DNA from: Pyropia yezoensis
Taxonomy: Eukaryota > Rhodophyta > Bangiophyceae > Bangiales > Bangiaceae
Assembly (NCBI GenBank): GCA_009829735.1
Contig: CM020618.1
Coordinates: 31,596,894 to 31,660,893, forward strand
Reading direction: 5' to 3'
DNA length: 64,000 nt
Under the pieces are notes generated by a model that worked only from the letters and a program-made list of their open reading frames with translations, did not search any database and was not told the DNA's origin. The translations under genes were made by a program, and so were the position numbers. The number at the start of each line of letters is the position of its first letter. Within the stretch, counting starts at the first letter, position 1. Shown piece by piece: positions 9,362-54,561 of the stretch.

Positions 9362-9371
9362 TGCCCTGTGG

Positions 9372-9378
9372 TATAAAA
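9372..9378 (+). promoter_or_regulatory. TATAAAA box facing the antisense ORF
   Basis: A consensus TATA box lies 5 nt inside the LTR edge, in the orientation opposite to gag-pol. Transcription from it would cross the LTR and reach the antisense ORF ATG at 10122. The motif recurs in every complete LTR here (TATAAAT in the B 5' LTR). A promoter role is inferred. Confidence 0.45.
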
Positions 9379-9647
9379 CTCGATCCTCTCAGACACGTGT
9401 CAATATCCCTCGGGGGAAAGGGACAGGTAACACAGAAAGGGGAACTACGGGAATGGTATGCCTGTTGCCTCACGTGCCTGCTCGCAGAGCAAACAGATAC
9501 GCACGGTAGTGCACACGGGGAAGAGGAAAGCAAACGCGCAGTTGTCTTTTTCCTGAGGGCGCGGGCCAAGGGCGCCTCGCTGTCCCTCTTAACGTGCATC
9601 TGGGGGAGCCTCGGCACGTTGGCCAGGTAGCCCCCCCATACCCCCGA

Positions 9648-9689
9648 GTGGCCCCGACCCGAGTCTAACCTCGTCAGGTCGGGGGCCAC
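9648..9689. other. Conserved GC-rich hairpin in the LTR
   Basis: GTGGCCCCGACC pairs with GGTCGGGGGCCAC (one bulged base) around a short centre that can itself pair partly. The same inverted repeat is present in the other complete LTRs (for example inside 4020-4070, 16790-16835, 31743-31790 and 34258-34300). Confidence 0.7.
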
Positions 9690-9940
9690 TATCACTACTA
9701 ATTCTATTCCCACTCACTAATCTCACACTCAAATTCTCTCAAATCAAGTCCCTCACAAGTATGCAAAAACCCATCAGCAATCCCTCTCTCACGTGTGGAT
9801 AGCGTAGTCCACCGCATCCCAGTGCCGGGCACGGGCCACGGCCGCCAACCATCACCACACGGCGGGCGTGTTCTGGCACCTGGTGCCCTCTGGTTGTAGT
9901 CCCGGCTCGGCGCCAAGTCGGGGCCAGGGATGCTACATAG

Positions 9941-9950
9941 CTCCCTCCCT
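9941..9950 (-). other. Candidate polypurine tract of element A
   Basis: On the minus strand it reads AGGGAGGGAG, 3 nt before the 3' LTR. The same tract precedes the 3' LTR of B, as expected for the plus-strand DNA primer. Confidence 0.6.
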
Positions 9951-10121
9951 AGTCTGGCACGTCCTCGGGCCGAACCAGATGCCACCGTGCACAGCCTCGA
10001 GCACGTTCACACCGGTGCCGAGGTCGAGCGTCTTCACCCTGGTCACGATCACCTGTTCCGGTTCTCTGCCCCCCTTCTCTCCTTCACCTTGGCCCTCGCG
10101 TTCCCCCGGAGTCTGGACGTC

Positions 10122-12239
10122 ATGTCCAGTTCCGAGATCCAAGCTGGGCCCGTGGTTCCGGCGGCGAGTGTTGCGGAGGAGAACTCGGGTAGTCGCGCCC
10201 CTCTCCTGCCTCCGGTTCCTCGGGTGTCGATGTCGGCGCCGGTCGCCACGGCGGGGACGGATCGGGTTCCCCCGGCTTCTGTGATGCACCCGGTCGAGAC
10301 CCCCCCGGTGGGTCTCCCGGAGATGCTTCTTGGGCAGGACCCTCTGGCGGCCCGGCGTTACTCCACGGTGGTCGGCAACGCCGGCGCGGCCCAGTGCCAG
10401 CAGGATTGCTTGGACCTCTGGCGCAAGGAACTCCAGCGCGGGGTCTTGACAGAGATGGATAAGGCTCGTCTTCACACGGCGGACCAGATGCGCCTGGCAC
10501 AAGACCGCTCCCAGAGCTTCTCGGGTTCCTCCTGGGTTGCTCGTCTGGAGGATCTCCCCTTCGCGCTGGTGCTGGATCCGCCCTTGACCGAGCGTCGCGT
10601 GTCCGCGTCCGTTCTCCGGTGGCCGGAGGAGGAAGGGTACGTCCACCGGGCGCTCAAGGTCTGGGACGAGGCGCTCAAGGGGTCGGGGAGCCTGAACTGC
10701 GACCCCCGTCCGAGCATGGTCGCTCTGGAGCCGCCTTTCCTGACCCGGAAGTACTCCAAGTTGTCACCGGCACGGGAGCAAGGCGAGCGACGCGGCCGCC
10801 AGCGTGACTTCCTCGTGAGCTGCAACCATCAGGAGTGCTGGAAGCTGGATAAGGCTAACCGGGCGACGTACTACCCCAAGGTCATCCCGCAGCAGCAGGA
10901 AGTCGAGATCCCGGTCGGGTTTGCTCCTTCCAGCATCCCCTTCACCTGGTACTTCTTGGACGCCTTGACTCAGGCGTCGATCAAGGGCTTCTTCCACTCG
11001 ATCCCGTACATGATGTACACGTCCGAGATGACAGTCTTGGCGGCCAACCACTGGCTTCACGAGGTCTTGGTGTCCAACCGGCTTTGGTTTCTCCCGGACC
11101 TCCTGATGGTCTGGATTGTCGACAAGTTGACCGTCGACTTCCTGTGCAGCCAGGAAGAAGATTACAAGGGGCTCTTCCAGGCGATGATTGACTTCCGGCG
11201 TCTGGTGCCGGTGCATGACCGGAACTTCTTGAACGCGATTGCCGACCAGAACCGCCCGCGTCGGGATGGCTTCGGTTGGGCGCAGGTGGTCTACCAGTCT
11301 TCTCCAGCCAAGGTGCAGCTGGCGACGCCGCTTCCGGCGTGGCCGCAGCTAGGTAGCTTTCCTGCCCCGGCCGCCCTTGATCTTCTGCCAGTTGGGCCGC
11401 CGGTGCAGGAGTCGGGATGGGCCGCGGCGGTCGGTCAGGCGTCTGCGGCGGCTCCGCTTCCTCCTGTTGCACCTGTCGCCCCGGTTGCCTCGCCTGAACC
11501 GTCGCCGGCGCGTTCACGCCCTGTTCCGGCTGTGCCGGTACTTCAAGCTCCTCCGGCACCGCGCCTGTCTGCGGCGAGTCTGGGGGTGACCGTGCGGTCG
11601 CCTACCACTCCGGCCGCTCCGCCTCGGACGCCTTCTTCCAACGCCGGCGGCGCTGTGCCTCCGCTGGAGTTGGGTACTCCGGTCTCGGGGGCCGTTGTGG
11701 ACCGTCCGGTGGTGTCATCCTCGGGGCGGTTCGAGATTCCGGCGCCGACTCTGCGCCTTACCCGCTTCCGGGTGCCTGACTGGTACCTGATCCAAGGTGG
11801 TCCGACATGCGACCAGTACGACGTCGGTATGATTGAAGACCAGCTGGGTCGTCTTCCGGTGCAGGTTGAAGGCGTTGGGTCCTCCCTGGTGCTGGGTACT
11901 TACGCCAGCGTCTTGAACAACGTGGTCGACCGGGTGTTTGCTTGCGCGGACAGCGGCCAGATGTCGAACAGCCCGGTGGTTGGCGAACTTCTGGCGACCT
12001 TGACGCGGCATGGCTTGGCCCAGCAGTGGTCAGAGACCTTCACTGGCTTCCAGGGGCGCCGACGGGCATATCTGGATGAGCGGGAGCCCCCGGCAACTAC
12101 CGGTACTACTCCGATGGCGTCATACCGGGATGCACCGCGTCCACCGCACTACGTCATCCCGTCTTCTTCCGGTTCCCGTCGTGCCGCGGAGGCAGCGCTG
12201 GAGGACACTCCCGCGGCTCAGCGTCCGCGCCGGGAGTAG
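10122..12239 (+). CDS. Antisense ORF of element A, 705 aa, unknown function
   Basis: I do not recognise the product. The ATG at 10122 starts MSSSEIQAGPVVPAASV; the stop is TAG at 12237-12239. Residues 1-75 are Pro/Ala/Ser-rich. About 80-395 is an ordered-looking block (LAARRYSTVVGNAGAAQCQQ near its start; WFLPDLLMVWIVDKLTVDFL within it). About 400-540 is Pro/Ala-rich, and 555-660 is a second ordered block (FRVPDWYLIQGGPTCDQYDV). The tail is basic. There is no signal peptide, no clear membrane anchor and no zinc knuckle, so it does not look like Env or Gag. It runs against pol and is separated from it by 145 nt. The same 705-codon frame is intact at 29188-31305, with amino-acid differences mainly conservative or in the low-complexity parts. 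Expression from the LTR TATAAAA is inferred. Confidence 0.8.
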   Translation: MSSSEIQAGPVVPAASVAEENSGSRAPLLPPVPRVSMSAPVATAGTDRVPPASVMHPVETPPVGLPEMLLGQDPLAARRYSTVVGNAGAAQCQQDCLDLWRKELQRGVLTEMDKARLHTADQMRLAQDRSQSFSGSSWVARLEDLPFALVLDPPLTERRVSASVLRWPEEEGYVHRALKVWDEALKGSGSLNCDPRPSMVALEPPFLTRKYSKLSPAREQGERRGRQRDFLVSCNHQECWKLDKANRATYYPKVIPQQQEVEIPVGFAPSSIPFTWYFLDALTQASIKGFFHSIPYMMYTSEMTVLAANHWLHEVLVSNRLWFLPDLLMVWIVDKLTVDFLCSQEEDYKGLFQAMIDFRRLVPVHDRNFLNAIADQNRPRRDGFGWAQVVYQSSPAKVQLATPLPAWPQLGSFPAPAALDLLPVGPPVQESGWAAAVGQASAAAPLPPVAPVAPVASPEPSPARSRPVPAVPVLQAPPAPRLSAASLGVTVRSPTTPAAPPRTPSSNAGGAVPPLELGTPVSGAVVDRPVVSSSGRFEIPAPTLRLTRFRVPDWYLIQGGPTCDQYDVGMIEDQLGRLPVQVEGVGSSLVLGTYASVLNNVVDRVFACADSGQMSNSPVVGELLATLTRHGLAQQWSETFTGFQGRRRAYLDEREPPATTGTTPMASYRDAPRPPHYVIPSSSGSRRAAEAALEDTPAAQRPRRE

Positions 12240-12384
12240 TAGTTGGAGGCAAGGAGGGTGAGGGTCTTGGGAGAAGCGAGGAGGGAAGAGGCGGAGAGAA
12301 GGGTTGCCCGAGCGGGTGATTGTTTTCCTTGATTGTTCCATGCTTGTATTGCGTGTTCTCCTTGATATACCCGTTCCCTTCTTC

Positions 12385-16344: not shown

Positions 16345-16472
16345 ACAGGGTGTCCAGGCGGCTACCGGTTGAGCACGTAACCGCCGTCCTTTCTCCCGGC
16401 ACGCAAGGGAGGAACAGGTAGAAGTACCCTGCCGTTGGAGATTCGAGAAGACGCTTGGGGAGAGCGCCTGCC

Positions 16473-16542
16473 CTACTCGCTTCCCGGGTCCGAGGAGTCC
16501 TTAGAGGTTTCGGTCTCCAGGTCGAAGTCCGTAGGAGCTTCC
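16473..16542 (-). pseudogene. C-terminal fragment of element A gag
   Basis: The minus-strand translation matches the last residues of the intact-order gag in element B (EAPTDFDLETETSKDSS) and ends in TAG at 16473-16475. It was separated from the rest of gag (32068-33763) by insertion of element B; its first five bases are the duplicated CTTCC target. The position equivalent to the GGGAAAC heptamer in B reads GGGAAGC here. Confidence 0.9.
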
Positions 16543-17115
16543 TGTAGCATCCCTGGCCCCGACTTGGCGCCGACCCGGGACTGCAACCAGAGGGCACCAG
16601 GTGCCAGAACACGCCCGCCGTGTGGCGATGGTTGGCGGCCGTGGCCCGTGCCCGGCACTGGGATGCGGTGGACTACGCTATCCACACGCGAGAGAGGGAT
16701 TTCTGATGTGTTTTTGCATATTTGTGAGGGACTTGATTTGAGAGAATTTGAGTGTGAGATTAGTGAGTGGGAATAGAATTAGTAGTGATAGTGGCCCCCG
16801 ACCTGACGAGGTTAGACTCGGGTCGGGGCCACTCGGGGTTATGGGGGGGGCTACCGGGCCAACGTGCCGGGGTTCCCCCAGATGCACGTTAAGAGGGACA
16901 GCGAGGCGCCCTCGGCCCGCGCCCTCAGGGAAAAAGACAACTGCGCGTTTGCTTTCCTCTTCCCCGTGTGCACTACCGTGCGTATCTGTTTGCTCTGCGA
17001 GCAGGCACGTGAGGCAACAGGCATACCATTCTCGTAGTTCCCCTTTCTGCGTTACCTGTCCCTTTCCCCCGAGGGATATTGACACGTGTCTGAGAGGATC
17101 GAGATTTATACCACA
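16543..17115 (+). repeat. 5' LTR of element B
   Basis: This 573-bp LTR runs from TGTAGCATCC to TATACCACA and is nearly identical to 31495-32067. It is preceded by the CTTCC target duplication and followed by the PBS. Confidence 0.95.
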
Positions 17116-17119
17116 TATT

Positions 17120-17136
17120 TGGTGGAGCAGCAGGGG
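17120..17136 (+). other. Primer-binding site of element B
   Basis: TGGTGGAGCAGCAGGGG starts 4 nt after the LTR. The leading TGG complements the universal tRNA 3' CCA, and the rest would pair with an acceptor stem whose 5' strand begins GGAGCAG. The same PBS is in element A. I cannot name the tRNA. Confidence 0.75.
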
Positions 17137-17324
17137 ATTGGAGTGTTTGAGAAGAGACATTTGGGAGCAGCGGTTGCGTTGTTCCTATTCTGTCTTTTTC
17201 TGTGGTTTGGGAATTATTTGCACCCGTTCACGGGAACCCCATTCCTGGCTCTCCAACCCCTCTCTTGTGGTCTTGCGATCTTTGGACACGCAGGTAACTG
17301 GACTGTGGCTGTCAAGAGACCAAC

Positions 17325-19085
17325 ATGGCTACCCTCCCTGGCACGACGGTGCCCGAAGGGGTAGACCCCGCGTCCCTTGACGCATCCCTGGTCACCGCGG
17401 GGGACGGTGCCCAACCCGGCGTTCTCCCTACGGGTGAAGCAGACCTGGGCGTGACATCCGGTAGTGGACTGGAGTCTACAGGCGGCCAAGTACCGCCTGC
17501 TCCCGTTCCTCCGGCTGTTCCTCCTGTGGGAGCCACCCCGGGGTCAACGGCGTTTGAGTCCGCTCGCAGCAGACGTCTCCCTCCTGTCGGTTCTACTCTT
17601 CAACCTCCAGGGAAAGCCCCTGGTGTGTTTACTCCTGGACCCACACATGGCAGCTGGGTGTATACACCTCTTCCTGTGGGCACTAGCAGTGCCAGAGGCA
17701 CCGCTATGACTGGTTCTACGGGTCTTCCTGAGACTTCGACTCCTGGGACCGGCCAAGCTTTTCCTCCCCTTGCGTCCTATGGGGCGGGGAGCTCCAAGAC
17801 CGGTGACCGGAGCAGCCGTAGGCGTCGTCGTCGTCGCCGCCGCTCTAGCACCAGCGAGACCAGTTCCTCCAGCTCTGAGGAGGGATATGACTGGGATGCA
17901 TCTCCCGGTCCTACCCGGCGCAGGCTAGTCGAGTTCGACTTCCCTGCCCACCAAGTGGGAGATGCCACCCTGAACAAGGTCACGTATTGGGGTAACTACC
18001 GGCTGGAGAACCAAGACCAAGGTTACACCCGGAAGATGGCCAAGAAGATGGCATCCCTGAACCGGTGAATGCAGCCGAGCTTTGGGGGGCATCCTAAGTT
18101 TTCCGGGAAGAGACCGGCGCTTATCTTTGCCTTCCTGCGCCGGTTTGTCAAGGCATGCAATGACAACGATGTGTCCGAGGGCAAGGCTCTCTATCTCCTG
18201 GTTAACTTCATGACCGGAGAAGCGGAACAGCGGTTTGCACAGGTTCTACCAGACTCTGCCGGGCACATTGTTGGACGTACCGTCGCGAGTTATCCGGAGG
18301 CGGTCAACTGGCTCCTGTCCAACTACGCAGACGCGGACTCCCTGCGTAAGGCAGTCGGTAGGCTGAACCGGGCAACCATGGAGAGACAAGAGACTCCAGA
18401 GGCGTTCGCCCGTCGTGTCCGGGAGATGAGCGATGCTTGTGGCAACGTTTACCCTGAGGACAGGCTCAAGATGATCTTCTCGGAGGGGCTTCCTGAATAT
18501 CTTCAAGTGGATGCGGAGAACTACAACCAGGAACATCAAGAACATACCTTCCAGCAGTTGATGGCCTATACCCAGGGCAAGCACCGGCAAGCCAAGGCCA
18601 TCCAGGCTCCTATGGTATCAACCCCCAAGCCGTTGTCGCGAGTTCGTCCCGGACCCGACAAGTATAAGGGAGGTGATAACCCTGTACCGGTACTCGCAGT
18701 TGGCGAGGCCTCACCCATGGAGTCAAGGGACAAGTGGGGCGGCTTCGTTTCTAAGGAGCAACCTTCCCTGGTCGCCCCCAAGCAGATCAGGAACCAGCGG
18801 TTCCGGTCTTGCTGGCTGTGCCAGAAGGAGGATCATATGTCCTACCAGTGCCCGACCATTCCCGAGGATCTCCAGGAGAAACTCAAGCGTCAAGGACTGG
18901 TGTTTGCAAAGGCGGTCAACTGGGCTGACCGGCGGGCACCCTCCAAGATGGACAAGGCACAGGTACATGCCATCCGAGTGGCAACCTTACAGAGCATCAC
19001 GGAGGCTCTGGCAAGGGAAGCTCCTACGGACTTTGACCTGGAGACCGAAACCTCTAAGGACTCCTCGGAGCCGGGAAACGAGTAG
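17325..19085 (+). pseudogene. Element B gag with one in-frame TGA
   Basis: The ATG at 17325 (MATLPGTTVPEGVDPASL) opens a 586-codon gag with a Pro/Thr-rich N-terminus, an Arg/Ser-rich patch, a Retrotrans_gag-like capsid region (FSGKRPALIFAFLRRFV to the DRLKMIFSEGLPEYL segment) and one CX2CX4HX4C zinc knuckle at residues 496-509 (CWLCQKEDHMSYQC) for RNA binding. The frame is cut by TGA at 18066-18068, where element A has CGA (Arg), a single C-to-T change at a CpG. The same frame then continues to TAG at 19083-19085. With the stop suppressed or absent, Gag would assemble the cytoplasmic particle. Pol lies in the -1 frame and overlaps the end. Confidence 0.93.
19073..19079 (+). promoter_or_regulatory. 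Candidate -1 ribosomal frameshift heptamer GGGAAAC
   Basis: In gag frame the bases read G GGA AAC, a canonical X XXY YYZ slip site, four nucleotides before the TAG. The -1 frame is open from 19037 and leads straight into pol. I could not identify a convincing downstream structure. Confidence 0.5.
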
Positions 19086-19213
19086 GGCAGGCGCTCTCCC
19101 CAAGTGTCTTCCCGAATCTCCAACGGCAGGGTACTTCTACCTGTTCTCCCCTTGCGTGCCGGGAGAAAGGACGGCAGTTACCTGCTCAACCGGTAGCCGC
19201 CTGGACACCCTGT

Positions 19214-22200
19214 TTGTTCAAGGGGACCTTGCTCGTCCTGCGTAAGGAAAACCTCAAGATTAATGCTCGTATGCGTGTGGGGGATAGCCTCCCCCAAGCT
19301 GTTACGCCGGTGGTCGACACGGGAGCCGGACCAAGCGTCATCACTGAGAACCTGTTACCTCCGGGCTGGCGTCGACATGCCTGGAGAGCGCCTACCAAGA
19401 CCCGGATTGTAGACGCATCAGGTCAAACCCTACGACCGCTTGGCCGTCTTCCCGTCGCCATCTATGTCAACAATGAACCAATGCTTTTTCCCTTTCTAGT
19501 AGTCAAGACCTTATCAGTCCCCCTCATCCTAGGCTGGGACTTCCAGAAGCAGCATGTCAAGAGCATCCTACCCGGAGAAGGAAAGGTGCAGTTCAACCAT
19601 GGGTTTGTGTCACCAGTGCTGGAGCACCTGGACACCAAGGTTCGTGTGGCCAAGAACCAGAAGGAACGCATCCCACCCTCTACCTTGACCCTCATCAAAC
19701 CGGTGCTCCTACCTCCTCGCTCGGAGACCAAGGTTCAAGTCACGACCCGGACTGCAGGTCAATGCCTGATCTACGGACGCAAGGAATTTCTGGCGAAACA
19801 CCGATTATACCTAGCCCACGGACACCACAAGAAGGTGGAGAGGCACACCCCGTTCTCGGTGCTGATCGTCAACGTGAGCCGGAAGCCAATAACCCTCGCC
19901 AAGGGCACTCGAGTTGGTACAGCAGAGCCTTACCGGGGGTCCGCCCGCGCTATGAGCAAGGAAGACCTCTTCAACCTGCAACAAGAGCTGGCATCCAACT
20001 TGACGGCCTTAGACGTATCTCCGGAACAAGAGCAGGCTGGCCGTACTACTCCAAAGCCCGAACAAGCACCGCCCGGGATGCCGAAGGTCAAGCAAGAAAA
20101 TGTCCCTCCCGACTTGAAGGAGGCACTGGAGAAGCTTCTCCAGGAACATCGGCACCTGTGGTCCGGAGAGCTGGGCAAGATGGACGCCACCCTACACCGG
20201 ATTCAACTCAAGCCAGATGCCAAACCAGTGCACATGCACCCATACCGGGCTGGACCTCATCGCCGGGATGAGATTGAGAAGCAGGTTAACAAGATGCTCA
20301 AGATGGATGTTATCGAGCCGTCTGATGGCGAGTGGGCTTTCCCGGTGGTAGTCGTCCCGAAACCTGGCGGTCACTTCCGTTTCTGCGTTGACTACAGACG
20401 CCTGAACGAGATGACAGTCAAGGATGTATACCCGATACCCCGGATGGATGATTGCCTCGACTTTCTTGGTGATGCCACCCTCTTCTCGACGCTGGATTGT
20501 AATGCCGGTTACTGGCAGATCCCTCTGGCTGACGAGGACAAGGACAAGACTACCTTCACGTGCCACATGGGACTGTTCCGGTGCAAGCGTCTCCCTTTTG
20601 GTCTCACTAATGCTCCGGCAACCTTCCAGAGAGCCATCGACATCATCCTGTCGGGGCTAAGGTGGAGAACATGTTTGGTCTACCTGGACGACATCATTGT
20701 TTTCTCCAAGACCCCAGCGGAACACCTGGAGCACCTTCGGGAGGTCCTGGCCCTCCTGTCCAAGGCTGGAGTTACCCTCAAGGCCGAGAAGTGCCACCTG
20801 TTTGAGACTGAGGTGGAGTACCTGGGGCACGTGCTGAGTCCGGGGGAGCTCCGAGTCAATGAGAAGAACATCAAGGCCCTCCGGCATGCACGGCAACCTA
20901 AAACCCAGACGGAACTCAAGAGCTTCCTGGGTATGTGCAACGTCTACCGCCGGTTCGTACGAGACTACGCTCTGATTGCCCGGCCCTTGACCAAGCTTAC
21001 TAGCAAGAAGCTTCCAGCACAACTCCCGGTGTTCGACGAGAAGCAGACAGCAGCCTTCGAAGAGCTCAAGAAGCGCCTGACCACCACTCCAGTACTGGCG
21101 TTACCCAAGCGGGAGGGTCAGTTTGTTCTGGAGACTGACGCCTGTGGCGTCCAGGTGGGGTGCTCACTACTCCAGCAGCAACCTGATGGGCACTTTCTCC
21201 CGATAGGCTACTACAGTCGCGTCTTGACTCCAGCTGAGAAGAACTATTCCACGACCGAGCGCGAGTGCTTGGCAGTCGTCTGGGCTTGCTTCCTGTTACG
21301 TCCATATCTTGAAGGACAAGAGTTCCTCATCCGGACGGACCACGCCAGTCTAAGGTGGCTGCTATGCATGGACAGCAGTCAAGGAAGGGTCGCCCGGTGG
21401 CGCCTACGCCTTTCGGAGTTCAAGTACAAGGTGTGCACCAGAGCAGGGAGGGAGCACCACTGCGCCGACACCATGTCCCGGCTGGAGACTCCTGCAGCCG
21501 ATACCGGTCCTATCCCGGAGGAAATACCTTGCTTCATCCTCCCGAATGTCGGACGTGGCTGGCACGCTCCCCTGTACGAGACACCTGACGCTCATCAACC
21601 GGTAACCATTCACCGGATGCTGGAGGCACAATTGACGGACCCTCAATGCTTGGAGCTTCGCCACCAAATGGACCTGAACCGGAACAATCGCTTCTCCGAG
21701 TCTACAGACGGACTCCTGGTACGGGTGTCACCCTTCGATGGGGCAACTCAAGTCTACGTACCCCGGAGCCTACGGACTGACATCTTACGCCTGGAGCACT
21801 CGTCTCCCCAGGCCGGGCATCCTGGTATCAATCGGATGTATGCTTCCATGAGACGACATTATTACTGGGAAACCATGGCCAGTGACGTCCATAAGTGCCT
21901 GGAGGCTTGTGTTTCGTGTGCAAGGAACCGGTTGTCCCAGAGGAAGAAGACTTCTAAGCTACGCCTATTCCCTGCGGCGGAGCCCTTTGCAAGCTTAAGC
22001 ATGGACATCCTGGGGCCCCTACCTGAGACCTCCAGTGGCAACATATACCTGCTCATCATTTGTGACCGGTTCTCCAAGTTCACTCGAGCAATCCCGTTGA
22101 GAACCATCACGGCTCTGGATGTCACGTCGGCCTTCTGCGAGTACTGGATAGCTGCCTACGGCCCTCCAGACTCCGTCTTAACCGACAACGGTCCCCAGTT

Positions 22201-23173: not shown

Positions 23174-23318
23174 GAAGAAGGGAACGGGTATATCAAGGAG
23201 AACACGCAATGCAAGCATGGAACAATCAAGGAAACCAAGCACCCGCTCGAGCAACCCTTCTCTCCGCCTCTTCCCTCCTCGCTTCTCCCAAGACCCTCAC
23301 CCTCCTTGCCTCCAACTA

Positions 23319-25436
23319 CTACTCTCGGCGCGGACGCTGAGCCGAGGGATTGTCCTCCGGCGCTGCCCCCGCGGTACGACGGGAACCGGAGGAAGACGGG
23401 ATGACGTAGTGCGGTGGACGCGGCGCATCCCGGTATGACGCCATCGGAGTAGTACCAGTAGTTGCCGGTGGCTCCCGCTCATCCAGATATGTCCGTCGGC
23501 GCCGCTGGAAGCCCGTGAAGGTCTCTGACCACTGCTGGGCCAAGCCATGCCGCGTCAAAGTCGTCAGAAGTTCGCCAACCACCGGGTTGTTCGACATCTG
23601 GCCGCTGTCCGCGCAAGCAAACACCCGGTCGACCACGTCGTTCAAGACACTGGCGTAAGTGCCCAGCACCAGGGAGGACCCGACGCCTTCAACCTGCACC
23701 GGAAGACGACCCAGCTGGTCTTCAATCATGCCGACGTCGTACTGGTCGCATGTTGGACCACCTTGGTTCAGGTACCAGTCAGGCACCCGGAAGCGGGTAA
23801 GGCGCAGAGTCGGCGCCGGAATCTCGAACCGGCCCGAGGATGACACTACCGGACGGTCCACAACGGCCCCCGAGACCGGAGTACCCAACTCCAGCGGAGG
23901 CACAGCGCCGCCGGCGTTGGAAGAAGGCGTCCGGGGTAGAGCGACCGGAGTAGTCGGCGACCGCACGGCCACTCCCAGACTCGCCGCAGACAAGCGCGGT
24001 GCCGGAGGAGCTTGAAGTACCGGCACAGCAGGAACAGGGCGCGGACGCGCCGGTGACGGTTCAGGCGAGGCAACCGGGGCGACAGGGGCAACAGGAGGAA
24101 GCGGAGCCGCCGCAGACGCCCGACCGACCGCCGCGGCCCATCCCGACTCCTGTACCGGCGGCCCAACTGGCAGAAGATCAAGGGCGGCCGGAGCAGGAAA
24201 GCTACCTAGCTGCGGCCACGCCGGAAGCGGCGTCGCCAGCTGCACCTTAGCCGGAGAAGACTGGTAGACCACCTGCGCCCAACCGTAGCCATCCCGACGC
24301 GGGCGGTTCTGGTCGGCAATCGCGTTCAAGAAGCTCCGGTCATGCACCGGTACCAGACGCCGGAAGTCGATCATCGCCTGGAAGAGCTCCTTGTACTCCT
24401 CGTCCTCGCTGCACAGGAAGTCGACGGTCAACTTGTCGACAATCCAGACCATCAGGAGGTCGGGGAGAAACCAAAGCCGGTTGGACACCAAGACCTCGTG
24501 AAGCCAGTGGTTGGCCGCCAAGACTGTCATCTCGGACGTGTACATCATGTACGGGATTGAATGGAAGAAGCCCTTGATCGACGCCTGAGTCAAGGCGTCC
24601 AAGAAGTACCAGGTGCAAGGGATGCTGGAAGGAGCAAACCCGACCGGGATCTCGACTTCCTGCTGCTGGCGTGATGACCTTGGGGTAGTATGCCGCCCGG
24701 TTGGCCTTGTCCAGCTTCCAGAACTCCTGATGATTGCAGCTCACGATGAAGTCACGCTGACGCCCGCGTCGCTCACCCTGCTCCCGTGCCGGCGACAACT
24801 TGGAGTATTTCCGGGTCAAGAAAGGCGGCTCCAGAGCGACCATGCTCGGACGGGGGTCGCAGTTCAAGCTTCCCGACCCCTTGAGCGCCTCGTCCCAGAC
24901 CTTGAGCGCCCGGTGGACGTACCCTTCCTCCTCCGGCCACCGGAGAACGGACGCGGACACGCGACGCTCGGTCAAGGGTAGATCCAGTACCAGTGCGAAG
25001 GGGAGATCCTCCAGACGAGCAACCCAAGAGGAACCCGAGAAGCTCTGAGAGCGGTCTTGTGCCAGGCGCATCTGGTCCGCCGTATGAAGACGTGCCTTGT
25101 CCATCTCGGTCAAGACCCCGCGCTGGAGTTCCTTGCGCCAGAGGTCCATGCAATCCTGCTGGCACTGGGCCGCGCCGGCGTTGCCAACCACCGTGGAGTA
25201 ACGCCGGGCCGCCAGAGGGTCCTGCCCAAGGAGCATTCCGGGAGACCCTCCGGGGGGGTCTCGACCGGGTGCATCGCGGAAGCCGGGGGAACTCGATCCG
25301 TCCCCGCCGTGGCGACCGGCGCCGGCACCGACATCCGAGGAACCGGAGGCAGGAGAGGGGCACGACTACCCGAGTTCTCCTCCGCAACACTCGCCGCCGG
25401 AACCACGGGCCCAGCTTGGATCTCGGAACTGGACAT
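23319..25436 (-). pseudogene. Antisense ORF of element B, copy before the gap, two compensating indels
   Basis: The same 705-codon frame as 29188-31305, from an ATG at 25436 to a stop at 23319. One extra G near 24669 and one missing base near 25236 shift the frame for about 565 nt and then restore it, so total length is unchanged. Because the near-identical copy after the gap lacks both changes, sequencing error is as likely as mutation. Unknown function; see the intact copies. Confidence 0.85.
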
Positions 25437-25623
25437 ACCGTCCAGACTCCGGGGAACGAGAGGGCCAAGGTGAAGGAGCGGGGGGGGGGGGGGGCAGAAT
25501 CGGGGCAGGTGATCGTGACCGGGGTGAAGACGCTCGACCTCGGCACCGGTGTGGACGTGCTCGAGGCTGTGCACGGTGGCACCTGGTTCGGCCCGAGGAC
25601 GTGCCGGACTAGGGAGGGAGCTA

Positions 25624-25736
25624 TGTAGCATCCCTGGCCCCGACTTGGCGCCGACCCGGGACTGCAACCAGAGGGCACCAGGTGCCAGAACACGCCCGCC
25701 GTGTGGCGATGGTTGGCGGCCGTGGCCCGTGCCCGG
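25624..25736 (+). repeat. LTR fragment cut by the assembly gap
   Basis: The first 113 bp of the LTR (TGTAGCATCC onward) match 31495-31607 and stop at the first N. It is preceded by the polypurine tract, so it is a 3' LTR position in element orientation. Confidence 0.95.
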
Positions 25737-26236
25737 NNNNNNNNNNNNNNNNNNNNNNNNNNNNNNNNNNNNNNNNNNNNNNNNNNNNNNNNNNNNNNNN
25801 NNNNNNNNNNNNNNNNNNNNNNNNNNNNNNNNNNNNNNNNNNNNNNNNNNNNNNNNNNNNNNNNNNNNNNNNNNNNNNNNNNNNNNNNNNNNNNNNNNNN
25901 NNNNNNNNNNNNNNNNNNNNNNNNNNNNNNNNNNNNNNNNNNNNNNNNNNNNNNNNNNNNNNNNNNNNNNNNNNNNNNNNNNNNNNNNNNNNNNNNNNNN
26001 NNNNNNNNNNNNNNNNNNNNNNNNNNNNNNNNNNNNNNNNNNNNNNNNNNNNNNNNNNNNNNNNNNNNNNNNNNNNNNNNNNNNNNNNNNNNNNNNNNNN
26101 NNNNNNNNNNNNNNNNNNNNNNNNNNNNNNNNNNNNNNNNNNNNNNNNNNNNNNNNNNNNNNNNNNNNNNNNNNNNNNNNNNNNNNNNNNNNNNNNNNNN
26201 NNNNNNNNNNNNNNNNNNNNNNNNNNNNNNNNNNNN
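25737..26236. other. Assembly gap, exactly 500 N
   Basis: The run of N has a round length, so its size is probably nominal. Reading frames that cross it are meaningless. Confidence 1.
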
Positions 26237-29042
26237 GGTCACTTCCGTTTCTGCGTTGACTACAGACGCCTGAACGAGATGACAGTCAAGGATGTATACC
26301 CGATACCCCGGATGGATGATTGCCTCGACTTTCTTGGTGATGCCACCCTCTTCTCGACGCTGGATTGTAATGCCGGTTACTGGCAGATCCCTCTGGCTGA
26401 CGAGGACAAGGACAAGACTACCTTCACGTGCCACATGGGACTGTTCCGGTGCAAGCGTCTCCCTTTTGGTCTCACTAATGCTCCGGCAACCTTCCAGAGA
26501 GCCATCGACATCATCCTGTCGGGGCTAAGGTGGAGAACATGTTTGGTCTACCTGGACGACATCATTGTTTTCTCCAAGACCCCAGCGGAACACCTGGAGC
26601 ACCTTCGGGAGGTCCTGGCCCTCCTGTCCAAGGCTGGAGTTACCCTCAAGGCCGAGAAGTGCCACCTGTTTGAGACTGAGGTGGAGTACCTGGGGCACGT
26701 GCTGAGTCCGGGGGAGCTCCGAGTCAATGAGAAGAACATCAAGGCCCTCCGGCATGCACGGCAACCTAAAACCCAGACGGAACTCAAGAGCTTCCTGGGT
26801 ATGTGCAACGTCTACCGCCGGTTCGTACGAGACTACGCTCTGATTGCCCGGCCCTTGACCAAGCTTACTAGCAAGAAGCTTCCAGCACAACTCCCGGTGT
26901 TCGACGAGAAGCAGACAGCAGCCTTCGAAGAGCTCAAGAAGCGCCTGACCACCACTCCAGTACTGGCGTTACCCAAGCGGGAGGGTCAGTTTGTTCTGGA
27001 GACTGACGCCTGTGGCGTCCAGGTGGGGTGCTCACTACTCCAGCAGCAACCTGATGGGCACTTTCTCCCGATAGGCTACTACAGTCGCGTCTTGACTCCA
27101 GCTGAGAAGAACTATTCCACGACCGAGCGCGAGTGCTTGGCAGTCGTCTGGGCTTGCTTCCTGTTACGTCCATATCTTGAAGGACAAGAGTTCCTCATCC
27201 GGACGGACCACGCCAGTCTAAGGTGGCTGCTATGCATGGACAGCAGTCAAGGAAGGGTCGCCCGGTGGCGCCTACGCCTTTCGGAGTTCAAGTACAAGGT
27301 GTGCACCAGAGCAGGGAGGGAGCACCACTGCGCCGACACCATGTCCCGGCTGGAGACTCCTGCAGCCGATACCGGTCCTATCCCGGAGGAAATACCTTGC
27401 TTCATCCTCCCGAATGTCGGACGTGGCTGGCACGCTCCCCTGTACGAGACACCTGACGCTCATCAACCGGTAACCATTCACCGGATGCTGGAGGCACAAT
27501 TGACGGACCCTCAATGCTTGGAGCTTCGCCACCAAATGGACCTGAACCGGAACAATCGCTTCTCCGAGTCTACAGACGGACTCCTGGTACGGGTGTCACC
27601 CTTCGATGGGGCAACTCAAGTCTACGTACCCCGGAGCCTACGGACTGACATCTTACGCCTGGAGCACTCGTCTCCCCAGGCCGGGCATCCTGGTATCAAT
27701 CGGATGTATGCTTCCATGAGACGACATTATTACTGGGAAACCATGGCCAGTGACGTCCATAAGTGCCTGGAGGCTTGTGTTTCGTGTGCAAGGAACCGGT
27801 TGTCCCAGAGGAAGAAGACTTCTAAGCTACGCCTATTCCCTGCGGCGGAGCCCTTTGCAAGCTTAAGCATGGACATCCTGGGGCCCCTACCTGAGACCTC
27901 CAGTGGCAACATATACCTGCTCATCATTTGTGACCGGTTCTCCAAGTTCACTCGAGCAATCCCGTTGAGAACCATCACGGCTCTGGATGTCACGTCGGCC
28001 TTCTGCGAGTACTGGATAGCTGCCTACGGCCCTCCAGACTCCGTCTTAACCGACAACGGTCCCCAGTTTGCATCCCTGTTCTTCCAAGGAGTCTGTGACC
28101 TGATGGGCATCAAGAACTTGTACACCACGACGTACCACCCTCAAACGAACGGCCAGGTGGAACGATTCAACCGGACCCTAGTGGACATGCTACGGCACTA
28201 CGTGGAGGAGCACCAAGAAGACTGGGACGAGCTCCTGGCTGTCCTCACTCTAGCCTACAACTCCCGAGTTCACCGGACAACGGGAGTCGCTCCACTCGAC
28301 TTTGTCACCCCGAGGCGGCTGACCAACTTCTCCCTGGAAAGAATACCGGATGGTCTCCAGCCTGCACTGAAGTCAGGTCCCAAGGCAAAGGATGAGTTCC
28401 TGGAACAACTAAAGCTCCTGCTCCCAAGAGTCAAGGAGTCAATTTCAAAGACCCAGGAGCGATACAAGCGGGGACTATGACAAGGGTGTCCGGGAAAAGA
28501 ACAAGGAACTGGGTGGTGGCGACTGGGTTTTTGTGGACAACCATAGCAAGACCCGGGGGAAGCTGGACTCTAAGACGGATGGACCTTATGAGATTCTCAA
28601 TACGGACGGTTGGACCTTTCTTCTAGACGTGGATGGCTCTCCGTACCGGGTGAGCAGCGACCATGTCACCCGAGCTCCACCGCCAAGCCAACGGGACTTG
28701 ACCCGGCGTAAGCGGACTGCGATACCCTGGCTATCCCAAGAAGAAGGTCGGGAATTTGTCTACGTCAAGTTTGTCGACCATGCCTGGAGAGATGGACGCC
28801 TGTACCTGCGAGTACGCTGGTTCGGTTTCAACCCGGCAGATGATACCTGGGAACCCTCAAACCGGCTACCCATCGCGGACGTCTGTGCCTACACGCGACG
28901 GAACGGGATTGAGGGCACTCCCGTGGCCAGAGCCGGCAAGATTCTGGAGTCGGACACGAAGGAGGACCAAGAGGACGGGGCCAACCAAGACCCTCGGGAC
29001 GAGACGAGCTCACCCGCAACGGATGCGGAACAAGAGGATTGA
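26237..29042 (+). pseudogene. Element B pol, partial copy after the gap, frameshifted
   Basis: The sequence begins inside RT at the position equivalent to 20369 and is otherwise nearly identical to 20369-23173, including the YLDD box, RNase H, integrase and chromodomain. An extra G in the run near 28471 shifts the frame and produces an early stop at 28478-28480; the original frame resumes and ends at 29042. Together with the gap, this most likely represents the same locus sequenced twice, with a homopolymer error, rather than a second element. Confidence 0.9.
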
Positions 29043-29187
29043 GAAGAAGGGAACGGGTATATCAAGGAGAACACGCAATGCAAGCATGGAACAATCAAGG
29101 AAACCAAGCACCCGCTCGAGCAACCCTTCTCTCCGCCTCTTCCCTCCTCGCTTCTCCCAAGACCCTCACCCTCCTTGCCTCCAACTA

Positions 29188-31305
29188 CTACTCTCGGCGC
29201 GGACGCTGAGCCGAGGGATTGTCCTCCGGCGCTGCCCCCGCGGTACGACGGGAACCGGAGGAAGACGGGATGACGTAGTGCGGTGGACGCGGCGCATCCC
29301 GGTATGACGCCATCGGAGTAGTACCAGTAGTTGCCGGTGGCTCCCGCTCATCCAGATATGTCCGTCGGCGCCGCTGGAAGCCCGTGAAGGTCTCTGACCA
29401 CTGCTGGGCCAAGCCATGCCGCGTCAAAGTCGTCAGAAGTTCGCCAACCACCGGGTTGTTCGACATCTGGCCGCTGTCCGCGCAAGCAAACACCCGGTCG
29501 ACCACGTCGTTCAAGACACTGGCGTAAGTGCCCAGCACCAGGGAGGACCCGACGCCTTCAACCTGCACCGGAAGACGACCCAGCTGGTCTTCAATCATGC
29601 CGACGTCGTACTGGTCGCATGTTGGACCACCTTGGTTCAGGTACCAGTCAGGCACCCGGAAGCGGGTAAGGCGCAGAGTCGGCGCCGGAATCTCGAACCG
29701 GCCCGAGGATGACACTACCGGACGGTCCACAACGGCCCCCGAGACCGGAGTACCCAACTCCAGCGGAGGCACAGCGCCGCCGGCGTTGGAAGAAGGCGTC
29801 CGGGGTAGAGCGACCGGAGTAGTCGGCGACCGCACGGCCACTCCCAGACTCGCCGCAGACAAGCGCGGTGCCGGAGGAGCTTGAAGTACCGGCACAGCAG
29901 GAACAGGGCGCGGACGCGCCGGTGACGGTTCAGGCGAGGCAACCGGGGCGACAGGGGCAACAGGAGGAAGCGGAGCCGCCGCAGACGCCCGACCGACCGC
30001 CGCGGCCCATCCCGACTCCTGTACCGGCGGCCCAACTGGCAGAAGATCAAGGGCGGCCGGAGCAGGAAAGCTACCTAGCTGCGGCCACGCCGGAAGCGGC
30101 GTCGCCAGCTGCACCTTAGCCGGAGAAGACTGGTAGACCACCTGCGCCCAACCGTAGCCATCCCGACGCGGGCGGTTCTGGTCGGCAATCGCGTTCAAGA
30201 AGCTCCGGTCATGCACCGGTACCAGACGCCGGAAGTCGATCATCGCCTGGAAGAGCTCCTTGTACTCCTCGTCCTCGCTGCACAGGAAGTCGACGGTCAA
30301 CTTGTCGACAATCCAGACCATCAGGAGGTCGGGGAGAAACCAAAGCCGGTTGGACACCAAGACCTCGTGAAGCCAGTGGTTGGCCGCCAAGACTGTCATC
30401 TCGGACGTGTACATCATGTACGGGATTGAATGGAAGAAGCCCTTGATCGACGCCTGAGTCAAGGCGTCCAAGAAGTACCAGGTGCAAGGGATGCTGGAAG
30501 GAGCAAACCCGACCGGGATCTCGACTTCCTGCTGCTGCGTGATGACCTTGGGGTAGTATGCCGCCCGGTTGGCCTTGTCCAGCTTCCAGAACTCCTGATG
30601 ATTGCAGCTCACGATGAAGTCACGCTGACGCCCGCGTCGCTCACCCTGCTCCCGTGCCGGCGACAACTTGGAGTATTTCCGGGTCAAGAAAGGCGGCTCC
30701 AGAGCGACCATGCTCGGACGGGGGTCGCAGTTCAAGCTTCCCGACCCCTTGAGCGCCTCGTCCCAGACCTTGAGCGCCCGGTGGACGTACCCTTCCTCCT
30801 CCGGCCACCGGAGAACGGACGCGGACACGCGACGCTCGGTCAAGGGTAGATCCAGTACCAGTGCGAAGGGGAGATCCTCCAGACGAGCAACCCAAGAGGA
30901 ACCCGAGAAGCTCTGAGAGCGGTCTTGTGCCAGGCGCATCTGGTCCGCCGTATGAAGACGTGCCTTGTCCATCTCGGTCAAGACCCCGCGCTGGAGTTCC
31001 TTGCGCCAGAGGTCCATGCAATCCTGCTGGCACTGGGCCGCGCCGGCGTTGCCAACCACCGTGGAGTAACGCCGGGCCGCCAGAGGGTCCTGCCCAAGGA
31101 GCATCTCCGGGAGACCCTCCGGGGGGGTCTCGACCGGGTGCATCGCGGAAGCCGGGGGAACTCGATCCGTCCCCGCCGTGGCGACCGGCGCCGGCACCGA
31201 CATCCGAGGAACCGGAGGCAGGAGAGGGGCACGACTACCCGAGTTCTCCTCCGCAACACTCGCCGCCGGAACCACGGGCCCAGCTTGGATCTCGGAACTG
31301 GACAT
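29188..31305 (-). CDS. Antisense ORF of element B, intact copy, 705 aa
   Basis: An ATG at 31305 opens an uninterrupted 705-codon frame on the strand opposite gag-pol, between pol and the 3' LTR, with a stop 145 nt from the pol stop. Two ordered blocks (about residues 80-395 and 555-660) are joined by a Pro/Ala-rich linker, as in element A. Comparison with A shows a small number of mostly conservative changes (for example FLVSCN versus FIVSCN) and no frame damage. There is no Env-like signal or anchor, no zinc knuckle and no nuclease motif that I can see. Function is unknown; it could be an RNA-binding, packaging, silencing-suppressor or regulatory protein, none of which the sequence decides. 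Confidence 0.8.
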   Translation of the reverse strand: MSSSEIQAGPVVPAASVAEENSGSRAPLLPPVPRMSVPAPVATAGTDRVPPASAMHPVETPPEGLPEMLLGQDPLAARRYSTVVGNAGAAQCQQDCMDLWRKELQRGVLTEMDKARLHTADQMRLAQDRSQSFSGSSWVARLEDLPFALVLDLPLTERRVSASVLRWPEEEGYVHRALKVWDEALKGSGSLNCDPRPSMVALEPPFLTRKYSKLSPAREQGERRGRQRDFIVSCNHQEFWKLDKANRAAYYPKVITQQQEVEIPVGFAPSSIPCTWYFLDALTQASIKGFFHSIPYMMYTSEMTVLAANHWLHEVLVSNRLWFLPDLLMVWIVDKLTVDFLCSEDEEYKELFQAMIDFRRLVPVHDRSFLNAIADQNRPRRDGYGWAQVVYQSSPAKVQLATPLPAWPQLGSFPAPAALDLLPVGPPVQESGWAAAVGRASAAAPLPPVAPVAPVASPEPSPARPRPVPAVPVLQAPPAPRLSAASLGVAVRSPTTPVALPRTPSSNAGGAVPPLELGTPVSGAVVDRPVVSSSGRFEIPAPTLRLTRFRVPDWYLNQGGPTCDQYDVGMIEDQLGRLPVQVEGVGSSLVLGTYASVLNDVVDRVFACADSGQMSNNPVVGELLTTLTRHGLAQQWSETFTGFQRRRRTYLDEREPPATTGTTPMASYRDAPRPPHYVIPSSSGSRRTAGAAPEDNPSAQRPRRE

Positions 31306-31481
31306 CCCGTCCAGACTTCGGGGAACGAGAGGGCCAAGGTGAAGGAGCGGGGGGGGGGGGGGGGGCAGAATCGGGGCAGGTGATCGTGACCGGGGTGAAG
31401 ACGCTCGACCTCGGCAGCGGTGTGGACGTGCTCGAGGCTGTGCACGGTGGCACCTGGTTCGGCCCGAGGACGTGCCGGACT

Positions 31482-31491
31482 AGGGAGGGAG
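31482..31491 (+). other. Candidate polypurine tract of element B
   Basis: AGGGAGGGAG lies 3 nt before the 3' LTR, matching the tract of element A on the other strand. Confidence 0.6.
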
Positions 31492-31494
31492 CTA

Positions 31495-32067
31495 TGTAGC
31501 ATCCCTGGCCCCGACTTGGCGCCGACCCGGGACTGCAACCAGAGGGCACCAGGTGCCAGAACACGCCCGCCGTGTGGCGATGGTTGGCGGCCGTGGCCCG
31601 TGCCCGGCACTGGGATGCGGTGGACTACGCTATCCACACGCGAGAGAGGGATTTCTGATGTGTTTTTGCATATTTGTGAGGGACTTGATTTGAGAGAATT
31701 TGAGTGTGAGATTAGTGAGTGGGAATAGAATTAGTAGTGATAGTGGCCCCCGACCTGACGAGGTTAGACTCGGGTCGGGGCCACTCGGGGTTATGGGGGG
31801 GGCTACCGGGCCAACGTGCCGGGGTTCCCCCAGATGCACGTTAAGAAGGACAGCGAGGCGCCCTCGGCCCGCGCCCTCAGGGAAAAAGACAACTGCGCGT
31901 TTGCTTTCCTCTTCCCCGTGTGCACTACCGTGCGTATCTGTTTGCTCTGCGAGCAGGCACGTGAGGCAACAGGCATACCATTCTCGTAGTTCCCCTTTCT
32001 GCGTTACCTGTCCCTTTCCCCCGAGGGATATTGACACGTGTCTGAGAGGATCGAGTTTTATACCACA
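31495..32067 (+). repeat. 3' LTR of element B
   Basis: This 573-bp LTR differs from 16543-17115 at two positions by eye (one in the GTTAAG run, one beside the TATA box). It is followed by the CTTCC duplication and then by element A gag. Confidence 0.95.
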
Positions 32068-33763
32068 CTTCCCTTGCCAGAGCCTCCGTGATGCTCTGTA
32101 AGGTTGCCACTCGGATTGCATGTACCTGTGCCTTGTCCATCTTGGAGGGTGCCCGCCGGTCAGCCCAGTTGACCGCCTTTGCAAACACCAGTCCTTGACG
32201 CTTGAGTTTCTCCTGGAGGTCCTTGGGAATGGTCGGGCACTGGTAGGACATGTGATCCTCCTTCTGGCACAGCCAACAAGACCGGAACCGCTGGTTCTTG
32301 ACTTGCTCGGGGGCGACCAGGGATGGTTGCTCCTTAGAAACGAAGCCGCCCCACTTGTCCCCTGACCCCATGGGTGAGGCCTCGCCAACTGCGAGTACTG
32401 GCACAGGGCTATCACCTCCCTTATACTTGTCGGGTCCGGGTCGAACTCGCGACAACGGCTTGGGAGTTGATACCATGGGAGCTTGGAGGGCCCTGGCTTG
32501 CCGGTACTTGCCCTGGGTGTAGGCCATCAACTGCTGGAAGGTATGTTCTTGATGTTCCTGGTTGTAGTTCTCCGCATCCACTTGAAGATATTCAGGAAGC
32601 CCCTCCGAGAAGATCATCTTGAGCCTGTCCTCAGGGTAAACGTTGCCACAAGCATCGCTCATCTCCCGGACACGACGGGCGAACGCCTCTGGAGTCTCTT
32701 GTCTTTCCATGGTTGCCCGGTTCAGCCTGCCGACTGCTTTACGCAGAGAGTCCGCGTCAGCGTAGTTGGACAGGAGCCAGTTGACCGCCTCCGGATAACT
32801 CGCGACGGTACGTCCGACAATGTGTCCGGCAGAGTCTGGTAGAACCTGTGCAAACCGCTGTTCCGCTTCTCCGGTCATGAAGTTAACCAGGAGGTAGAGA
32901 GCCTTGCCCTCGGACACATCGTTGTCATTGCATGCCTTGACAAACCGGCGCAGGAAGGCAAAGATAAGCGCCGGTCTCTTCCCGGAAAACTTAGGATGTC
33001 CCCCGAAGCTCGGCTGCATTCGCCGGTTCAGGGACGCCATCTTCTTAGCCATCTTCCGGGTGTAACCTTGGTCTTGGTTCTCCAGCCGGTAGTTACCCCA
33101 ATACGTGACCTTGTTCAGGGTGGCATCTCCCACTTGGTGGGCAGGGAAGTCAAACTCGACTAGCCTGCGCCGGGTGGGACCGGGAGATGCATCCCAATCA
33201 TATCCCTCCTCAGAGCTGGAGGAACTGGTCTCGCTGGTGCTAGAGCGACGGCGATGACGCCGACGCCTTCGGCTGCTCCGGTTACCGGTCTTGGAGCTCC
33301 CCGCCCCATAGGATGCAAGGGGAGGAAAAGCTTGGCCGGTCCCAGGAGTCGAGGTCTCAGGGAGACCCGTAGAACCAGTCACAACGGTGCCTCTGGCATC
33401 GCTAGTGCCCACAGGAAGAGGTGTATACACCCAGCTGCCATGTGTGGGTCCAGGAGTAAACACACCAGGGGCTATCCCTGGAGGTTGAGGAGTAGAACCG
33501 ACAGGAGGGAGACGTCTGCTGCGAGCGGACTCAAACGCCGTTGACCCCGGGGTGGCTCCCACAGGAGGAACAGCCGGAGGAACGGGAGCAGGTGGCGCTT
33601 GGCCGCCTGTGGACTCCAGTCCGCTACCGGATGTCACACCCAGGTCTGCTTCACCCGTAGGGAGAACGCCGGGTTGGGCACCGTCCCCCGCGGTGACCAG
33701 GGATGCGTGAAGGGACGCGGGGTCTACCCCTTCGGGCACCGTCGTGCCAGGGAGGGTAGCCAT
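32068..33763 (-). pseudogene. Element A gag, main part, disrupted by element B
   Basis: The ATG at 33763 starts MATLPGTTVPEGVDPASL and the frame is open through the capsid-like region and the zinc knuckle (CWLCQKEDHMSYQC). It runs to 32068, where element B begins; the frame then reads into the B LTR. The remaining C-terminal codons are at 16542-16473. Joined across the insertion minus one target copy, the length equals that of gag in B (587 codons with stop). The codon mutated to TGA in B is CGA here. Confidence 0.93.
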
Positions 33764-33954
33764 GTTGGTCTCTTGACAGCCACAGTCCAGTTGCCTGCGT
33801 GTCCAAAGATCGCCAGACCACAAGAGAGGGGTTGGAGAGCCAGGAACGGGATTCCCGTGAACGGGTGCAAATAATTCCCAAACCACAGAAAAAGACAGAA
33901 CAGGAACAACCCAACCGCTGCTCCCAAATGTCTCTTCTCAAACACTCCAATCAT

Positions 33955-33971
33955 CCCCTGCTGCTCCACCA
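33955..33971 (-). other. Primer-binding site of element A
   Basis: The minus strand reads TGGTGGAGCAGCAGGGG, 4 nt inside the 5' LTR and identical to the site in element B, so both elements use the same tRNA primer. Confidence 0.75.
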
Positions 33972-33975
33972 AATA

Positions 33976-34546
33976 TGTCGTATAAAACTCGATCCTCTCA
34001 GACACGTTTCAATATCCCTCGGGGGAAAGGGACAGGTAACACAGAAAGGGGAACTACGGGAATGGTATGCCTGTTGCCTCACGTGCCTGCTCGCAGAGCA
34101 AACAGATACGCACGGTAGTGCACACGGGGATGAGGAAAGCAAACGCGCAGTTGTCTTTTTCCTGAGGGCGCGGGCCAAGGGCGCCTCGCTGTCCCTCTTA
34201 ACGTGCATCTGGGGGAGCCTCGGCACGTTGGCCAGGTAGCCCCCCCATACCCCCGAGTGGCCCCGACCCGAGTCTAACCTCGTCAGGTCGGGGGCCACTA
34301 TCACCACTAATTCTGTTCCCACTCACTAATCTCACACTCAAATTCTCTCAAATCAAGTCCCTCACAAGTATGCAAAAACCCATCAGCAATCCCTCTCTTA
34401 TGTGTGGATAGCGTAGTCCACCGCATCCCAGTGCCGGGCACGGGCCACGGCCGCCAACCATCACCACACGGCGGGCGTGTTCTGGCACCTGGTGCCCTCT
34501 GGTTGTAGTCCCGGGTCGGCGCCAAGTCGGGGCCAGGGATGCTACA
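33976..34546 (-). repeat. 5' LTR of element A
   Basis: This 571-bp LTR pairs with 9367-9937 (about eight differences by eye) and is followed by the TGCCC duplication at 34547-34551. Its inner edge reads TGTCGTATAAAAC, one base different from the other LTRs. Confidence 0.95.
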
Positions 34547-34551
34547 TGCCC

Positions 34552-54547: not shown

Positions 54548-54561
54548 GCCGCCGCCGCCGC

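Follow-up and report, generated by a model that had tools for sequence, protein, structure and literature searches.

A candidate accessory gene on the antisense strand of two chromovirus-type retrotransposon families in the red alga Pyropia yezoensis

Two families of chromovirus-type long terminal repeat (LTR) retrotransposons in Pyropia yezoensis, the edible seaweed nori, carry a long open reading frame (ORF) that lies downstream of pol and antisense to it; in the first family it is placed between pol and the 3' LTR. The sequence comparisons described here suggest that this frame is a genuine gene kept by both families and not a by-product, and that it probably specifies an accessory protein. 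The first family was met in a window of 64,000 nucleotides (assembly GCA_009829735.1, contig CM020618.1, positions 31,596,894 to 31,660,893 of the forward strand), where two of its members, elements A and B, each have an antisense frame of 705 codons, at 10122-12239 (+) and 29188-31305 (-) respectively. An initial annotation of the window had described both frames as intact; both are open, and the antisense-frame observation in A and B is confirmed as real. It had also held that the two elements inserted separately, which is borne out by their target-site duplications (TSDs; TGCCC for A, CTTCC for B) and by their LTR pair identities (98.6% and 99.65%), and that few residues separate the two frames; the nucleotide changes between them number 96 in 2115 nt, 34 of them non-synonymous.

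Selection on the antisense frame and its linkage to pol

The antisense frame is convergent to pol, with 145 bp between the two stop codons in the first family, and its ATG lies 184 bp (A) or 189 bp (B) from the 3' LTR. In 2000 mononucleotide shuffles the frame had about 17 stops on average and never fewer than 6, and the remaining five frames contain 6-19. A poly-C tract of variable length is found 50-70 nt upstream of the ATG, and downstream of the ATG the reading frame is preserved. Because the variable tract breaks the register between copies, the start was placed at the ATG of the 705-codon frame; an in-frame upstream extension (769 codons in A) was rejected on the same ground. In this region (about 31306-31400) B-type copies have a long variable poly-C run, and A has a C/T-rich stretch.

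Purifying selection acts on the antisense codons. The sample consisted of 22 copies, i.e., B, A and the 20 best-scoring loci after the window's own. All 22 frames are 2115 nt from ATG to stop, without indels, and an internal stop was present in one of the 21 non-A frames. The changes between A and B are distributed 19/16/61 over codon positions 1, 2 and 3, and with 62 synonymous against 34 non-synonymous changes the ratio of non-synonymous to synonymous substitution rates (dN/dS) is 0.18. For the 210 pairs among the 21 non-A copies, mean dS was 0.0315, dN 0.0059 and dN/dS 0.186, while the non-A copies compared with A gave 0.189; segregating sites by codon position numbered 24/22/71. When random mutations at the observed transition share were used as the model (20 copies, L025 being dropped as identical to L024), 45 of 117 changes were non-synonymous against 77 expected (P = 1e-9). 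The deficit was seen both for variants common to at least two copies (15/52 non-synonymous, P = 5e-8) and for singletons (30/65, P = 8e-4). The corresponding dN/dS values were 0.114 for pol, from 18 copies after three loci with an incomplete pol had been set aside, and 0.085 for the C-terminal part of gag (15 copies). Seven A-type copies had a weaker codon phase, 24/37/61, as expected of older, decaying copies.

The genome searched comprised 107,475,971 bases in 11 contigs, the largest being C1 (43,592,136 bases), C2 (34,331,705) and C3 (29,385,039). The published assembly has scaffolds of 43.6, 34.3 and 29.4 Mb, was built with PacBio, BioNano and Hi-C, and is 48.0% repeats, LTR retrotransposons predominating (PMC7423979). 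With B's protein as query, 61 of the best 63 full-length places were stop-free; with A's protein, 47 of the best 63 places over residues 1-705 were stop-free, three of the 63 being one end residue short. The two lists have no place in common, giving at least 126 distinct full-length places in two subfamilies, 108 of them without a stop; since both lists were drawn from the head of a ranking of over 23,000 first-look candidates, these counts are lower bounds and biased to intact copies. A 101-aa C-terminal piece matched at least 150 places, one group 97-100% identical to it and another 91-95%.

The gene is regularly spaced from pol. Among the best 150 pol C-terminus matches, 119 were at least 96% identical; 118 of these were compared with the positions of the antisense C-terminus, which lay 665-670 bp away in 103 (the omitted 119th also has a partner). 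Three of the 15 pol matches without a listed partner were inspected: in one the A-type gene is complete and had escaped the B-biased list, and the other two adjoin 500-N gaps and retain antisense fragments. Ten A-type loci were fetched by way of pol, of which seven have the full-length gene, two lack its first part and one is rearranged; among the seven, one has an indel, one has lost the start codon and three have an internal stop.

A homologous gene in a second family

The strongest new evidence is a homologous gene in a second family, which the initial annotation overlooked. The family is represented by a pol fragment beside copy L037, where a stop-free stretch of 349 aa is 48.7% identical to B's pol, and a search with a 101-aa pol piece found at least 150 places. 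At a further locus, L046, three antisense pieces follow pol; they have 384, 142 and 196 codons, share a frame and are separated by two stops. There the pol stop is at 255-257 and the end of the antisense frame at 372, leaving about 111 bp. The 142-aa piece matched at least 150 places with no stop inside the match, and 118 of the best 150 second-family places have a frame of at least 700 codons, mostly 724. In the intact copy L047 the product is 647 aa from the first ATG. L046 and L047 differ 5/3/31 by codon position, i.e., by 32 synonymous changes, 6 non-synonymous changes and 1 stop in 1527 nt. On C1, 16 plus-strand pol matches have a 1380-codon frame, and in 11 of these an antisense match follows exactly 2970 bases on (best 150 of each search); given this constant spacing, the second-family gene travels with its pol.

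The antisense proteins of the two families are 23% identical over 166 residues (BLASTP E 2e-8 in a single comparison), and their core alignment scores 95 against a maximum of 58 in 2000 shuffles. The core is less conserved than the compared part of pol (23% and 49% identity, respectively). In a midpoint-rooted pol tree, built from the 30 rows out of 55 that had at least 280 aligned residues, the two families fall in two supported groups, each with other relatives, within one larger supported group. Taken together, the core homology and the pol grouping suggest that the antisense gene is older than the family split or was transferred between the families.

In the roughly 4 kb downstream of five further chromodomain loci, each represented by a single copy, tblastn with the family-1 protein gave no match, a test that is weak alone, since the same tblastn missed the second-family gene in L046 at E up to 10. 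When both cores were compared with shuffles, no antisense frame of these five loci scored above its shuffles, while L046, the positive control, scored 63, its shuffles reaching 48 at most. In L032 one sense frame reached 49 against a maximum of 48 and was not counted, being the best of many comparisons; L032 and L029, two of the five loci, are 98.9% alike over 1.2 kb. Within the window, between a solo LTR and element A, 5560-6028 is a 90% identical fragment of the second-family antisense region.

Layout and class of elements A and B

Element A occupies 9362-34551 including its TSDs, lies on the minus strand and is interrupted by the whole of element B (16543-32067, plus strand), which is inserted in A's gag, near the gag 3' end. 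The A gag open frame, 31925-33886, extends into B's LTR. B's own gag has a premature stop, at a codon that is stop-free in 12 of 12 other copies checked. The nesting of B in A, the duplication about the 500-N gap in B, B's gag stop and the cut in A's gag had all been overlooked in the initial annotation. The features of the window are as follows.

3740-4310, minus strand: solo LTR of the same family as A and B; TSD AGCCC at 3735-3739 and 4311-4315
9362-9366 and 34547-34551: TSD of element A, TGCCC
9367-9937, minus strand: 3' LTR of element A
10122-12239, plus strand: antisense gene of element A, 705 codons
12385-16344, minus strand: pol of element A, 1319-codon open frame with protease, reverse transcriptase, RNase H, integrase and a weak chromodomain
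16538-16542 and 32068-32072: TSD of element B, CTTCC
16543-17115, plus strand: 5' LTR of nested element B
17325-18068, plus strand: N-terminal part of B gag, up to the premature stop
18069-19085, plus strand: C-terminal part of B gag, with a weak CCHC knuckle under the Pfam cut-off
19214-23173, plus strand: B pol, 1319-codon open frame
23319-25436, minus strand: repeat appearance of B's antisense gene in a probable contig overlap
25737-26236: 500-N gap within B
29188-31305, minus strand: antisense gene of element B, 705 codons
31495-32067, plus strand: 3' LTR of element B
32068-33886, minus strand: element A gag, severed by the B insertion
33976-34546, minus strand: 5' LTR of element A
42497-43735, minus strand: sub-threshold Transposase_21 match
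46204-48501, minus strand: probable host gene, DEAD-box helicase
49405-51588, plus strand: probable host gene, major facilitator superfamily (MFS) transporter

The stretches flanking the 500 N, 20369-25736 and 26237-31607, are 99.85% identical, and the antisense copies within them (23319-25436 and 29188-31305) differ by two single-base indels and no mismatches. Such flanks are best read as the overlapping ends of two contigs that were joined in the scaffold without being merged, with B probably an ordinary element. Because of this overlap the third antisense copy, at 23319-25436, is not independent. A tandem duplication in B as a biological event was ruled out by the position of the 500-N gap between near-identical stretches. 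N stretches occur in 9 of 20 fetched copies of the A/B family, which thus seems to disrupt assembly, perhaps with false duplications as a result. The copies at C1:41061732 and C1:41070823, at a distance of 9091 bases, have identical antisense genes and look like a tandem pair with a common LTR, though N stretches lie between them.

The pol domains follow the Ty3/gypsy order in Pfam (RVP, RVT_1, RT_RNaseH, Integrase_H2C2, rve), the RVP match in B's pol being below the Pfam cut-off. A, B and the solo LTR have TG..CA LTRs and a 5-bp target duplication, as do 9 of 10 further copies. A chromodomain match (PF00385) at the integrase C-terminus is sub-threshold, at 19.9-20.0 bits against a cut-off of 25.1; a pol relative of 62% identity, P0009, carries PF00385 among its precomputed domains, and the chromodomain model matches at least 150 places in the genome. 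A 2012 survey did not find retrotransposon chromodomains in Porphyra yezoensis in the data of that time (PMC3350952). Both LTRs could be measured in 10 of the 20 loci and were 0-1 substitution apart in all ten (two also had 1-2 gap positions), with identical 5-bp TSDs in nine; given this closeness of the LTR pairs, the family has recently been active.

Elsewhere in the window, the MFS transporter and the DEAD-box helicase are probable host genes, the sub-threshold Transposase_21 match suggests a DNA transposon remnant, and about 54000-58000 the G+C content rises to 83%, with 9-base-step repeats.

The antisense product, its possible role and its counterparts

The antisense protein has a Pro/Ala-rich N-terminus, a conserved core at about residues 200-360 with the motif YYPK-x(7)-VE[IV]P-x-GF, and a Pro-rich linker. 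The last 150 residues of the second-family protein are basic (35 R+K, 18 D+E). Pfam gave no match for family 1 at E up to 1 or for family 2 at E up to 5, NCBIfam and scans of viral contigs yielded no relative, and among PDB sequences none was credible, the hits being at E 0.04 or worse and all in the Pro-rich linker. Protein searches over 5.77 billion sequences found only P0007, 97% identical; they depend on exact 5-residue words in common, and one of them scored part of its candidates, so that a relative as remote as the second family would escape them. Predicted structures were unusable, with a mean predicted local distance difference test score (pLDDT) of 28.3 at full length (9 rows) and 39.0 for the core (3 rows). 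No strong transmembrane stretch was found, the best 19-residue Kyte-Doolittle mean being 1.54; whereas an env-like gene is in sense orientation with transmembrane segments, this one is antisense. The earlier statement that the product has no recognisable motif and no Env features therefore stands.

The gene is presumably expressed from an mRNA complementary to the element's genomic RNA, which would start in or near the 3' LTR and be translated into the accessory protein. The B 3' LTR has a sole TATAAA on the antisense strand, 6 nt from the outer end of the LTR, and 19 of the 20 loci have an antisense-strand TATAAA in the 3' LTR; in L025, whose 3' LTR is partly N, it is in the other LTR. The hexamer is a pattern only, LTR ends being integrase sites as well, and in B a transcript from it would have four ATGs ahead of that of the gene.

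Extra genes in antisense orientation at this position are already known from plants and fungi and, in other form, from REM1 of Chlamydomonas. Boty, a fungal example, is a chromodomain element. Likeness to the antisense ORFs of the plant Tat branch (Retand, Grande gene23, RIRE2) lies in an antisense extra ORF between pol and the 3' LTR. Retand is of a non-chromovirus lineage, with a TRP28 (PF04195) domain in the antisense ORFs of 97% of clusters (PMC11963269), whereas the P. yezoensis protein has no TRP28 match and its host is a red alga. With Boty and brtn of Botrytis cinerea, compared by description only, the likeness is an antisense extra gene; Boty of Botrytis and Sclerotinia is listed with one (PMC7264820), and brtn is the extra ORF of BcGypsy1 (PMC8365987). 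REM1, a C. reinhardtii chromovirus with a reverse-frame segment (PMC2774666), is like the present elements an algal Ty3/gypsy chromovirus with a reverse-frame coding sequence. Its reverse part, however, is reported to be a truncated integrase with a GPY/F module and chromodomain, while in P. yezoensis the integrase and chromodomain-like end are in the sense pol and the antisense protein has no Pfam match. The initial annotation, which had proposed an undescribed system and had itself cited the plant elements, is supported in part: a conserved antisense gene, under selection, in a chromodomain-type Ty3/gypsy element is borne out, and the fungal and Chlamydomonas cases limit its novelty. For LTR elements of red algae, no antisense gene was described among the literature matches listed, subscription papers lying mostly outside that search.

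As to function, our best guess, by analogy, is a nuclear accessory role: the protein may well act in the nucleus, on RNA or chromatin of the element itself, aiding expression or countering host silencing, a proposal that we hold tentatively. It draws on the Arg-rich tail of the second family and on two precedents, the nuclear antisense protein of Grande (PMC11963269, PMC7264820) and HBZ of human T-cell leukaemia virus type 1 (HTLV-1), a nuclear accessory protein of a retrovirus coded antisense (PMC11963269), HBZ serving as a functional analogy only, without sequence comparison. The next choices would be a self-limiting copy-number regulator and a particle-associated factor. A broader and more speculative possibility is that a deep chromovirus-type clade is ambisense by design, with an orphan accessory gene that was already passed down together with pol when the two families diverged and that is needed for element success, e.g., against silencing of the element's own chromatin or RNA; such a gene might also be present in the sources of the pol relatives.

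Several points weigh against the view that a genuine gene with a nuclear role has been kept. The gene and its product are known here from sequence alone, the sample of best-scoring copies is tilted towards intact frames, and the P values serve as guides because related copies do not provide independent sites. The N-terminal part of gag (B 17325-18068) is near-neutral, with dN/dS 0.635 in 13 copies and 16 of 24 changes non-synonymous (P 0.54); not all open frames here are therefore constrained. Compared between the families, the antisense proteins show no excess over shuffles in their N- or C-terminal parts. The pattern that the initial annotation had set against a gene, dN/dS near 1 with frequent stops, is absent in young copies (0.186), but older A-type copies are decaying, with stops in 16 of 63. 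The last 150 residues of the family-1 protein hold 15 R+K vs 17 D+E, and this lack of a basic excess leaves a nuclear function weakly grounded. An RS domain in the second-family tail was ruled out, RS/SR dipeptides not being enriched.

Control of copy number, in which the element's replication is held back by the antisense protein, alone or together with the antisense RNA, as that of Ty1 is by the Ty1 restriction factor, seems unlikely. In its favour, an antisense mRNA would match the 3' part of the genomic RNA as its complement, and double-stranded RNA and protein routes have both been raised for antisense genes in a review (PMC7264820). Yet a self-limiting gene should be easily lost in a high-copy burst, whereas the 20 best-scoring copies, an intact-biased set, keep the frame (one with a stop), and RNA interference alone would leave the codons unconserved. 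The size and position of the gene are reminiscent of env, and its product has a Pro-rich linker of the sort common in Gag proteins, so a second Gag-like or Env-like particle protein of the opposite strand was also considered. This is less likely still: no Gag, Env or zinc-knuckle match was found, no strong transmembrane stretch is present, and an antisense gene could not be spliced from genomic RNA. The core is also unlike the family's own gag, against the C-terminal part of which it scores within shuffles; derivation of the gene from gag was rejected on this comparison, which covered the gag C-part only.

Plant and animal LTR elements do capture host genes (PMC7264820), but a passively carried host gene is very improbable here, since both subfamilies have the gene, as does a second family whose pol is 49% identical, and purifying selection acts on it; no host paralogue was seen among the places read, which were part of the best 63 or best 150 listed. 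A chance frame, open only through the youth of the copies, might be thought of given the G+C content of about 61-65% over the antisense genes, the presence of other long spurious frames and the young LTRs. The codon-phased substitutions and the homologous core in the second family already contradict it, and we give it almost no credence.

A genuine gene kept by two families thus remains the preferred reading, and it bears on a class of genes, the antisense accessory genes of LTR elements, whose function is not settled. It also adds chromovirus-type elements of red algae to those with the antisense-gene layout. Here two abundant families, at least one of which has been active recently, retain the gene in a crop alga whose genome is 107 Mb, so that its transcription, the localisation of its product and any effect on silencing are directly testable. 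If an ambisense clade of the kind proposed does exist, its antisense products would form a family of retroelement accessory proteins that is new.

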